Part shown: positions 49,548-60,090 of the stretch, piece by piece | Layout: the number at the start of each line of letters is the position of its first letter | Position numbering within the stretch: the first letter of the stretch is position 1 | NCBI GenBank assembly: GCA_003133385.1 | Contig: PKXF01000012.1 | Coordinates: 2,933-66,932 of the forward strand | Length of the DNA: 64,000 bases | Source: Candidatus Saccharimonadota bacterium | GTDB lineage: Bacteria; Patescibacteriota; Saccharimonadia; Saccharimonadales; UBA4665 | Direction of reading: 5' to 3' | Notes under the pieces: model-generated | The model's database searches: none | What the model was told of the DNA's origin: nothing | What the model saw: the letters and a program-made list of their open reading frames with translations, nothing else | Position numbers and translations under genes: made by a program

Positions 49548-50804
49548 TTAAGCGTCAATGCCTAGCGTTTTTAGTAATTGCTCGGCACTAACCTGTTCGG
49601 CAGCCTGGGCTTTACGCCGTTTCCACTCATATGTGCCACTGCTGACAGTTTTATCACTTACTACAACCCGGTGGGGAATGCCAAGCAAATCGGCGTCGGC
49701 AAATTTCTCGCCAGGTCGTACATCACGGTCATCATATAGTACTTGAATGTCGGCTGCTGTCAAGAGGTTATATAGCTCATCAGCCTGCTTAACCACGTCA
49801 GGATTATCACCAAGGCGCGCCAAGTATACCTTGGCAGGCGCCACTGCTTCAGGCCAGACGAGACCTTTATCGTCTGCGAAATGCTCGGCAAGCAGACCCA
49901 TGAGGCGGCTAATGCCAAGGCCGTAGCAACCCATAATTATTGATTGCTGTCCGCCTTGTTCGTCAGTAAAATATACGCCAAGAGCATCGGAATATTTGCT
50001 GCCAAGTGGGAAAATGTTGCCAACCTCAACTGCCCGCTGTTCAACCAGTTCGTCTCTATTAAGACCTAGCTGCGTTAAGATTTCATCAGTAAATACCTCT
50101 TTATTGACTGCAATCCGCCGGTTTTCATCGACATAAATCGTATCCTCACCTACGTCACTTAAAACCTGGAACTCATCACTAAACTGGCTGAAAATACCAC
50201 CGCTGGCATACGTCCTATAGGTACTGTCGCCGATACCAAGTCGGCTGTAGATCCTCATATATGCTTCGGCGGCTTTTTCATAGAACTCATCGTGCTCGGC
50301 TTGGTTACGGCTAAAAGAATAGAGATCTTTCATTAAAAATTCACGTCCCCGCAGCAGCCCGCTCTTGGCTCGCAGTTCGTTACGAAACTTGTTACCTATC
50401 TGATAGATATAAATTGGCAGATCTTTATATGAACTGATAAACTCGTGCAGCATATCAGTTATCGGCTCTTCGTTGGTCAGACTAATGCCCAGCTCTGTAC
50501 CATTTAGCAGCTTGGTTTTGAACCAATTATCAACCTTTTCGTTATCCCAGCGGCCGGTCTTTTCCCAGATATCTTTGGGCTGAAGTATGCTCATTGATAC
50601 TTCGTTGCCGCCAATACCATTCATTTCCTCGCGGACAATCTGAGCAATATTATCAAGTACTTGTTTGCCAAGTGGTAAATAGGCATATACGCCTGCCATC
50701 TCTTTGTGGATGAAACCTGCTTGAATCAACAGCTGCGCGCTGCGCGCCGTTTCATCGGCCGGTACAGTTTTGCTGGTTTTAGTGAATAGTTGGCTTAATC
50801 GCAT
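49548..50804 (-). CDS. proS: Prolyl-tRNA synthetase without editing insertion
   Basis: 418 residues. Class II core with GVYAYLPLGKQVLDNI (motif 1), FRNELRAKSGLLRGREFLMKDLYSF (motif 2) and GCYGLGISRLMGLLAEHF (motif 3), then the anticodon-binding domain (VYLARLGDN to VVVSDKTV). The roughly 180-residue INS editing domain of typical bacterial ProRS is missing, as in the short alphaproteobacterial type. It is the second gene of an operon whose leader looks like a proline attenuator. Confidence 0.96.
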   Translation of the reverse strand: MRLSQLFTKTSKTVPADETARSAQLLIQAGFIHKEMAGVYAYLPLGKQVLDNIAQIVREEMNGIGGNEVSMSILQPKDIWEKTGRWDNEKVDNWFKTKLLNGTELGISLTNEEPITDMLHEFISSYKDLPIYIYQIGNKFRNELRAKSGLLRGREFLMKDLYSFSRNQAEHDEFYEKAAEAYMRIYSRLGIGDSTYRTYASGGIFSQFSDEFQVLSDVGEDTIYVDENRRIAVNKEVFTDEILTQLGLNRDELVEQRAVEVGNIFPLGSKYSDALGVYFTDEQGGQQSIIMGCYGLGISRLMGLLAEHFADDKGLVWPEAVAPAKVYLARLGDNPDVVKQADELYNLLTAADIQVLYDDRDVRPGEKFADADLLGIPHRVVVSDKTVSSGTYEWKRRKAQAAEQVSAEQLLKTLGIDA

Positions 50805-50822: not shown

Positions 50823-51623
50823 TTATTGTACCACCCTGCTGCACACCAAGTCCCCTGCCAGTAGTGCCCTGCAATCGACAAAGGCATTACCTAATATGAC
50901 ATTTATACCCGCTTCGGCGGCTTTTCCGGCAGCCAACAGTTTACTGTCCATACCACCTGTTCCTGATTCGCTAGGATCACCGCAATATTGCAGCATGTCA
51001 GGAATATCGGCAACTTTAATCTCCGGTACAACTTCATCGTCAACCTCAAAACCGTGTTTGTTGGTAAGCAGTAACAAGCTTGCAGCGCCGACCGATATAG
51101 CGGTATGGGCCGCCAGCCAATCGTTATCGGCTTCACTATCACCCTCGCCGCGCTTTCTAGCCTCTTGTCCTTGTTCGTATTCTACGAGCTCTTTGATGGC
51201 TGCGGCATTGTTTTCATTAAGCACGACTAACATGCCTTTGCCGGTGGCACTTTTAATATTGTTGATGATATGTGTCCCCTCGGCAGTATCATCAATCTCT
51301 TCATGGGTGGCCAAAACTTGTCCAATAGCTATACCGTACGGCTCACACGCCATTTCCCAGTGGCGTATCTGTCCGGCAGTTCCGGCTATGGCCAGTTCTT
51401 CTTCGGTAAAATCTTCAATACGCAGTCTAAGTCGGCGCATCTTTTCTTTGCCCTCGACTACGGCCCCGGAAGCTATTTCTATCGTATCAAAGCCGGCTCT
51501 ACGCAAATTGTAATGTTGCCGGCCATGATTATTAGTCTTGGCCTGGTTAATGCCTATACGATTGTATTCCTCTGACACTGATGCACCATGTTTGATAGCT
51601 ACCGTTTCTCTGCCATTCATCAC
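50823..51623 (-). CDS. Glutamate 5-kinase-like amino acid kinase
   Basis: 266 residues of the amino-acid-kinase fold closest to ProB, the first enzyme of proline synthesis. Seen: VAIKHGASVS, IASGAVVEG, AGTAGQIRHWEM, IGQVLATHEE, LVVLNENNAA (ProB PIINENDTV), ADNDWLAAHTA (GDNDxLSA) and GTGGMDSKLLAA (GTGGMxTK). There is no PUA domain and no proA nearby, and several residues differ from ProB, so the substrate is probable rather than certain. Strong AGGAGAAAG site. First structural gene after the proline-type leader; proS follows after 18 nt. Confidence 0.75.
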   Translation of the reverse strand: MMNGRETVAIKHGASVSEEYNRIGINQAKTNNHGRQHYNLRRAGFDTIEIASGAVVEGKEKMRRLRLRIEDFTEEELAIAGTAGQIRHWEMACEPYGIAIGQVLATHEEIDDTAEGTHIINNIKSATGKGMLVVLNENNAAAIKELVEYEQGQEARKRGEGDSEADNDWLAAHTAISVGAASLLLLTNKHGFEVDDEVVPEIKVADIPDMLQYCGDPSESGTGGMDSKLLAAGKAAEAGINVILGNAFVDCRALLAGDLVCSRVVQ

Positions 51624-51634
51624 ATCTTTCTCCT

Positions 51635-51720
51635 AAAATTAAAACCTCCGTTCTTTATGTCGAGCGGAGGCGTAAGTTTGCTAAATATTCACTAAAGTGA
51701 AACTACGCCCTAGTGGGCGG
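51635..51720 (-). promoter_or_regulatory. Proline-type transcription attenuator of the kinase-proS operon
   Basis: Four RNA segments on minus: 1 = CCGCCC (51715-51720), 2 = GGGCGTAGTTT (51700-51710), 3 = AAACTTACGCCT (51668-51679), 4 = CGGAGG (51645-51650). Pairing 1:2 is a 5-bp hairpin with ACTA loop. Pairing 2:3 is 11 bp with one bulged U, with a TCAC/GTGA hairpin inside its loop. Pairing of CCTCCG (51665-51670, overlapping segment 3) with segment 4 plus UUUUAAUUUU (51635-51644) is an intrinsic terminator. 2:3 and the terminator exclude each other. The leader peptide's Pro codons cover segment 1. Confidence 0.8.
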
Positions 51721-51759
51721 TAGCGGGAGAACAGATGCAAAACGTAATTTCTTGCTCAT
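51703..51759 (-). CDS. Proline-rich leader peptide, 18 residues
   Basis: MSKKLRFASVLPLPPTRA. Three of four consecutive codons at 12-15 are Pro (CCG CTA CCG CCC) and these codons form attenuator segment 1; the TAG stop lies in segment 2. An extended -10 ends 6 nt before the ATG, so the mRNA is leaderless. Known leader peptides of biosynthetic attenuators have the same design. Confidence 0.75.
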   Translation of the reverse strand: MSKKLRFASVLPLPPTRA

Positions 51760-51765
51760 AGTCGT

Positions 51766-51771
51766 ATTATA
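51766..51771 (-). promoter_or_regulatory. Extended -10 of the leader peptide-kinase-proS operon
   Basis: TGCTATAAT on minus, 6 nt before the leader ATG; abuts the stop of the CPBP protease gene. Confidence 0.7.
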
Positions 51772-51774
51772 GCA

Positions 51775-52605
51775 TTAATGTATGTAAGCTGCAAATAATG
51801 CTATGAAGGCAACAGTGTTCTTGAGGGCATGGAGTGTCATGCTGGCCCACAAACCACCAGTTTTTTCCCGCAGTAGTATAAGAATAAGACTGAGTATAAA
51901 GGTGTCAATTGCAGCAATATACAGTGGTCCGGCCGAACCGCCTTCCGGCAAATGCCCGACGGCAAATAAGACACTGGTCCCAATGACTGCCGCTGCGGTC
52001 GGCAGATTTTTTTTCAAGCTACTATATAAAAAGCCACGAAAGAGAATCTCTTCTGCTATAGGCGGTAAGATAACAAGACTTAGAAACGTAAGGGCTATCT
52101 GCCCTGCCCCACTGGGATTGCTAAAACCAAGTTGTTGCTTTTCGCTGACATTAAGTCCGGGTATAAAATACGTAATAATGCCGACTGCAACAAGATAAAT
52201 AATTAAGTAGGGCAGTAGTGCCGACAAGCCCCAGAGAGGGTCAGTCCAGCGCGGTCGCCTGAGACCAATCACTTGCAAACCATTTTTGTAACGACGGACA
52301 AATAAGTAGACTCCCAATACTACTAGAAATTCTGCAATTAATATAAACAGGAACTGGGCACTTATAGAATTAGTAAGCCAGTCCAAAACCTGCTGGTTTG
52401 TCCAATGTTTTGGGTAGCGATAATATGATAAGAAGACCCCACTGATAACTTGGGCGCCGAAGAAAATTATTGCTGCCAAGAACACGCCCAGTACCGGATT
52501 CCAGCTAGCGGACAGCGATGTATTCGCATTATCCGATGCGGTCCCCGCAGGCGGAGATACGGGCTTCTTCGGCGGCTTTAGCGCCTTAGTAGAAGCGCTT
52601 GACAT
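51775..52605 (-). CDS. CPBP (CAAX/Abi) intramembrane protease-like protein
   Basis: 276 residues: a Pro/Lys/Ala-rich tail (about 1-35), then about seven membrane helices. The conserved motifs are EEILFRGFLYSSL (EExxxR), then FAVGHLPEG (FxxxH) and a late HALKN. Such proteases are related to Rce1. Substrate unknown. It overlaps the end of rseP by 20 nt. Confidence 0.88.
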   Translation of the reverse strand: MSSASTKALKPPKKPVSPPAGTASDNANTSLSASWNPVLGVFLAAIIFFGAQVISGVFLSYYRYPKHWTNQQVLDWLTNSISAQFLFILIAEFLVVLGVYLFVRRYKNGLQVIGLRRPRWTDPLWGLSALLPYLIIYLVAVGIITYFIPGLNVSEKQQLGFSNPSGAGQIALTFLSLVILPPIAEEILFRGFLYSSLKKNLPTAAAVIGTSVLFAVGHLPEGGSAGPLYIAAIDTFILSLILILLREKTGGLWASMTLHALKNTVAFIALFAAYIH

Positions 52606-59933: not shown

Positions 59934-59946
59934 ACATGCAAGGATT

Positions 59947-60068
59947 CAATATCTTTTCCCGATAATCGGGCTAGACGTAGCACCGTTTCGACAATTTGGA
60001 AATCCGGAATTATCGAATGGTTGCTGGCGGGTCAACGAGCTAGATCTCTCACCGCACTCTGTATATTT
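59947..60068 (-). promoter_or_regulatory. SAM-I-type riboswitch aptamer
   Basis: On minus, in order: P1 5' AATAT then ACAGAG (SAM-I CAAGAG); P2 with a K-turn, GCGG-TGA-GAG ... CTC-GT-TGA-C-CCGC; the conserved GCAACC (60019-60024); P3 TTCGATAATT/AATTGTCGAA; the conserved GGTGCTA (59978-59984); P4 CCCGA/TCGGG; P1 3' AGATATT. CTAG in the P2 loop and CTAG after GGTGCTA can form the pseudoknot. Order and conserved bases match SAM-I. Confidence 0.88.
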
Positions 60069-60090
60069 ACCTAATTGTTAAAGCCTTCTA

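Follow-up and report, generated by a model that had tools for sequence, protein, structure and literature searches.

The window, i.e. the whole stretch of 64,000 nucleotides that was analysed, carries on its minus strand a short leader locus, 3' of rseP and of a CPBP protease gene. Judged by its closest relative, the genome resembles those of Saccharibacteria. The T-tract of the leader is followed by the SD AGGAG of an amino-acid kinase gene, and proS lies behind that gene. The features are, from 5' to 3' on that strand:

51766..51795 (-): promoter, TTTGCA (51795-51790), 18 nt spacer, TATAAT (51771-51766), with a TG before the -10
51703..51759 (-): leader peptide ORF, MSKKLRFASVLPLPPTRA and stop, ATG at 51759, 18 residues
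51715..51724 (-): segment 1, 5' arm of the 1:2 hairpin, overlapping the Pro codons
51700..51710 (-): segment 2, GGGCGTAGTTT, containing the leader stop codon TAG
51668..51679 (-): segment 3, AAACTTACGCCT, pairing with segment 2 (antiterminator) and overlapping the 5' arm of the terminator
51645..51670 (-): intrinsic terminator hairpin CCTCCG..CGGAGG, -11.5 kcal/mol
51635..51644 (-): terminator T-tract, TTTTAATTTT
50823..51623 (-): amino-acid kinase, ProB-like, below the proB cut-off; SD AGGAG at 51634-51630, start GTG 51623 or ATG 51620
49548..50804 (-): proS, prolyl-tRNA synthetase, 418 aa, the constant regulated gene

The promoter TTTGCA-18-TATAAT matches the consensus at 10 of 12 positions, and the leader ATG lies 6 nt 3' of the -10 hexamer. 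Three of the 18 residues are Pro, encoded by codons 12 (51726-51724), 14 (51720-51718) and 15 (51717-51715), and the stop codon ends at 51703. The 1:2 hairpin pairs GCTAC.GCCC with GGGCGTAGT; the alternative 2:3 pairing (GGGCGTAGTTT/AAACTTACGCCT) comprises 11 bp, including one G-U, plus one bulge. The terminator has a short stem, a large 14-nt loop with two weak inner pairs and an interrupted T-tract. It is absent from the output of a generic terminator scan because its loop is too large for that scan, which accepts loops of up to 8 nt. An earlier note had described here an 18-residue leader peptide with Pro-Leu-Pro-Pro, mutually exclusive hairpins and a terminator with a U-tract, and all these elements are indeed present. 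At the sequence level the leader, the promoter, the alternative pairings and the terminator are thus all real on the minus strand, and the locus displays the hallmarks of an attenuator: a cognate-codon leader ORF, a terminator before the first gene, and a 2:3 antiterminator exclusive of the terminator together with a 1:2 protector.

Elsewhere in the window a SAM riboswitch (53.7 bits) is found at 59946-60069 (-).

Within the order (Saccharimonadales), proS was found in 198 of the 198 genomes searched, and in 110 genomes we surveyed the DNA 5' of the gene. A gap of 80 nt or more precedes the proS unit in 46 of the 110; the other 64 have none, hence no leader there. Short ORFs with at least two Pro in 6 residues occur in 32 of these 46 gap regions, where shuffles predict 9.1 and the reverse strand gives 8. 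With at least three Pro in 6 residues the count is 18, for 1.2 predicted by shuffles and 1 on the reverse strand. Examples of the relatives' peptides are MVKRIYHISDLPLPRPI, VNCKTYFELDVPTPPSAGR, MIYDKVLVITPPAPV, MQISKLFELDVPTPPTRA, MRYQTIFSTLPTPMPI and MSSINKQLLSPPTPSRHRRLG, and the Pro leaders are distributed over at least 10 families of the order. The terminator could be resolved in 19 leaders. In 18 of them the Pro cluster begins with a codon at nt 28-37, in the other at nt 22; the end of the terminator falls at nt 101-125 (mean 112 +/- 8), the length from start to terminator being near constant. In two further genomes (G037 and G104) the leader is of the Pro type or resembles it, without a clearly resolved terminator. 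CCN triplets number 53 in frame vs 29 and 21 in the other two frames; the set of leaders used for this frame test, as for the pairing tests below, was partly picked for Pro-rich ORFs. When proS was scanned across the phylum (30 loci), no Pro leader of this type was found.

A second, shorter class of proS leaders was also observed, at L027-L030, L053, L059, L076, L083, L089, L094, L103 and L123. Here a leaderless-looking ORF starts mostly 99-112 nt 5' of proS, and a Pro codon sits in a short hairpin (CCGGC..GCCGG or CCGCC..GGCGG), on the 5' side of its stem; a T-rich stretch comes after the hairpin. These leaders lack a strong T-tract, and their in-frame CCN excess is not significant (p 0.057), so that this class is no more than a lead.

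The pairing of segments with their own partners was then compared with pairing to partners taken from other leaders. For 2:3 the values are -13.4 vs -10.1, and for 3:4 they are -11.6 vs -6.4; in both cases the observed value was reached in none of 20,000 permutations. The 1:2 pairing is weaker, its observed value being reached by 225 of 20,000 permutations; this figure was obtained with non-overlapping windows, the initial ones having overlapped. Related leaders also display paired changes on both sides of a stem (GTCGGAG/CTCCGAC, GTCGGGG/CCCCGAC, GCCGGGG/CCCCGGC). The arrangement exceeds chance, as it recurs in at least 10 families with little identity between leader groups and passed the shuffle, reverse-strand, partner-permutation and other-gene controls, all of them computational. 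The earlier note had proposed Pro-responsive attenuation and had asked for Pro codons and pairing to be sought in relatives; both came out in favour, and this claim is supported.

Folding predictions were made for the leader RNA in different states of occupation by a ribosome. Free of ribosomes it folds into the 1:2 hairpin and the terminator (-34.6 kcal/mol), the structure with 2:3 forced reaching -23.4. When nt 1-47 are occupied, i.e. with codon 12 in the A site, and the RNA extends up to segment 3, the predicted fold is 2:3 (-12.5 kcal/mol). A ribosome on codon 14 or 15 masks segment 2, and 2:3 is then not the predicted fold; one at the stop codon likewise covers segment 2, and 3:4 is predicted to form. 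In this model only a stall at codon 12, among the three Pro codons, would free segment 2. The claim that an early stall frees segment 2 thus holds in part, for codon 12 but not for codons 14 and 15. Once the full terminator is present, equilibrium folding prefers 3:4, and this holds for the codon-12 stall as well (P 0.97). Antitermination must therefore be kinetic. Such switching by timing is inferred here without any kinetic calculation; classical attenuators are generally held to antiterminate kinetically.

The start of the leader ORF has no SD-like site: AGGA, GGAG or GAGG at -18 to -4 from the start codon was found in 0 of 19 leaders, vs 14 of 16 genes behind the leaders (the gene test also accepted AAGG). 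The distance from the -10 to the ATG, 6 nt in this leader, is mostly 6-10 nt in relatives. From this spacing and the missing SD we infer that the leader peptide is probably leaderless, with transcription starting on or next to the ATG, as the earlier note had suggested; no transcription start has been mapped. The pattern TATAAT-N5-8-ATG is not enriched genome-wide, its count equalling that of its control, and about half of 30 examined matches in this genome open ORFs of at least 70 codons. On the latter ground leaderless starts may be common in this genome, in spite of the missing enrichment.

Could the leader respond to something other than its codons? In many Firmicutes proS is a T-box target, and of 61 genomes tested in the order 11 give weak T-box matches below the gathering score (L313-L316). 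A T-box or another ligand-binding RNA governing proS is nevertheless all but excluded: the covariance model finds no T-box in this genome, Rfam searches at the gathering threshold and at E up to 10 give only chance-level matches in the leader, and the leader is only ~125 nt long.

Codon-dependent attenuation was sought at other synthetase genes with a scan blind to the amino acid, requiring a -10-like hexamer 3-12 nt 5' of a short ORF, then a terminator. The scan covered the regions 5' of proS, hisS, trpS, thrS, pheS and leuS in the order, and those of proS phylum-wide. Trp leaders, e.g. MNKLFHLYYTWFTPPQLAVCSVRL and MSNNSWQKQKSWRQ, lie 5' of trpS in 11 of 30 regions, and His leaders, e.g. MVIKLTNQHHIHLSPELSVS, 5' of hisS in 3 of 30. 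In the same order the candidates at thrS are not enriched in Thr, pheS gave one unrelated candidate and no cognate one, and leuS gave no candidate. When labels were shuffled, the cognate excess was reached in 1 of 20,000 shuffles for Pro/proS, 0 for Trp/trpS, 31 for His/hisS and 14,901 for Thr/thrS. This cognate specificity is the strongest argument for the sensing of charged tRNA rather than of peptide chemistry. The Trp and His leaders are likely to act in the same manner on trpS and hisS in this order, by way of putative antiterminators; the design, found before these two genes in relatives, extends more widely than had been claimed.

Several trpS leaders (L166, L168, L173, L174, L175, L178, L180, L189) share a conserved YWFT-like motif and repeated GGCGG boxes, and a small, poorly conserved ORF of ~60-135 codons lies between them and trpS. 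The hisS leaders (L134, L156, L161) share a conserved QHHxHLxPEL-like motif and a strong terminator.

These results bear on two further alternatives. In the first, the leader would sense polyproline stalling, i.e. EF-P activity, ribosome pausing at PPx rather than tRNA-Pro charging opening the downstream genes. In its favour, PLPP and PTPP motifs occur in this and other leaders, PP is found in 11 of 19, and effects of EF-P on transcription-translation coupling at E. coli leader sequences have been reported (PMC5021804). We consider it very unlikely because PP is missing altogether from 8 of 19 leaders (LPLPRP, LPAPLP, LPTPMP, APTKP, LPIPRP and others), because versions of the same architecture with Trp or His codons precede trpS and hisS, and because proS is always in the regulated unit. 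In the second alternative, which we rank lower still, the hairpin merely ends the rseP-CPBP transcript that comes from upstream, the genes behind it have a promoter of their own, and the peptide ORF arose by chance in a hairpin arm rich in C. C-rich arms do favour CCN codons, and the terminator lies shortly 3' of the CPBP protease gene. However, the promoter is 5' of the terminator, the kinase starts just ~12-21 nt beyond the point where the T-tract begins to end, the Pro-ORF counts exceed those of shuffles and reverse strand, the amino acid of the leader codons matches the regulated gene, and the start-to-terminator length hardly varies.

As to what is regulated, the earlier note had named a glutamate-5-kinase-like (proB-like) gene together with proS. 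This holds in part: proS is the sole gene common to all leader units (it is also constant by the design of the survey), and the first gene varies, being a ProB-like kinase in ~12 units, a protein with a tRNA-binding domain in two, and other small proteins or none in the rest. A ProB-like kinase is present in 11 of 60 relatives. The likeness in sequence is there, with kinase scores under the cut-off for proB. Among the 11 genomes tested for proA, this genome gave none and the 10 relatives none above cut-off. A role of the kinase in ordinary proline synthesis is unlikely because there is no convincing proA.

The kinase repeatedly heads the proS unit, at 50823-51623 (-) here and at L002, L004, L006, L007, L009 and L011. 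Its use alone as a search query for the locus was dropped, as it is too divergent and not constant. The protein with the tRNA-binding domain sits between the Pro leader and proS at L034 and L117 (genomes G108 and G136); the assignment of the domain to PF01588 was tested for G136.

We conclude that the locus is very likely a ribosome-mediated (trp-type) transcription attenuator which senses charged tRNA-Pro and controls the proS transcription unit. This is inferred from sequence alone, without expression data on termination or on the response to starvation. Weighing against it are the preference for the terminator at equilibrium, the masking of segment 2 by stalls at codons 14 or 15, the short stem, large loop and interrupted T-tract of the terminator, the 64 of 110 genomes without a leader before proS, and the partly Pro-based choice of the leader set. 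Transcription would start on or next to the leader AUG, and a ribosome would initiate at the 5' AUG of the leaderless transcript. When Pro-tRNA is scarce the ribosome would halt with Pro codon 12 in its A site, so that segment 2 would stay uncovered and pair with the emerging segment 3; the terminator would be prevented and RNA polymerase would proceed into the kinase gene and proS. When Pro-tRNA is abundant the ribosome would reach the stop codon and mask segment 2, or depart and let 1:2 form; in either case 3:4 would form and transcription would stop near 51635-51644.

Ribosome-mediated attenuators of the trp type are known for trp, his, thr, leu, ilv and pheST. The present locus shares with them a leader peptide with cognate codons, segments 1-4, a stop codon in segment 2 and an intrinsic terminator; it differs by its phylum, by a leader without SD and probably without 5' UTR, by its target, proS, and by its Pro codons. 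The earlier note knew of no such attenuator for proline or ProRS in CPR, which must be corrected as regards Pro in general, since Pro-responsive attenuators are known in Salmonella: at the mgtP (mgtCBR) and mgtA leaders, low Pro-tRNA was shown experimentally to raise downstream transcription (PMC3641672). Those leaders likewise contain a short ORF with Pro codons (PMC3641672), but their targets are mgtC and Mg2+ transport, an SD-like sequence precedes mgtP, the leader is larger and carries other signals, and the lineage is another. In Streptomyces two aminoacyl-tRNA synthetase genes, trpS and leuS, are likewise predicted to have classical attenuators (PMC1262725); these concern only Trp and Leu, in actinobacteria, and that paper mentions neither proline nor leaderless leaders. 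In mycobacteria, leaderless polycysteine short ORFs attenuate the genes behind them (Canestrari et al. 2020, cited in PMC9031893; PMC4633059). These are leaderless and amino-acid-responsive too, but they use Cys codons, their targets are not synthetases, and candidate cys leaders have no obvious terminators (PMC1262725). The literature searched, which covered few subscription journals, yielded no report of attenuation for Saccharibacteria or CPR. Within that literature, the combination of inferred leaderless start, terminator, several synthetases and CPR is likely to be new.

A bolder joint reading is that Saccharibacteria run proS, trpS and hisS by one general device, leaderless leader peptides with cognate codons plus terminators, and that many members of the order carry a stripped-down form at proS, in which a short hairpin ~100 nt before the gene contains a Pro codon in its 5' arm and a stalled ribosome would melt this hairpin directly, with no need of an antiterminator. 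Taken as a whole, we would give this reading as much chance of being wrong as of being right.

These bacteria rely largely on other cells for amino acids, so synthetase genes that sense charged tRNA would read out the supply directly. If the attenuator is confirmed, an ultra-small Saccharibacteria would turn on its prolyl-tRNA synthetase when charged tRNA-Pro is low. It would be, within the literature searched, the first amino-acid attenuation of a prolyl-tRNA synthetase and, for the Candidate Phyla Radiation, the first case of any amino-acid attenuation; it would also mean that cells with reduced ribosomes can couple transcription to translation when initiation is leaderless.
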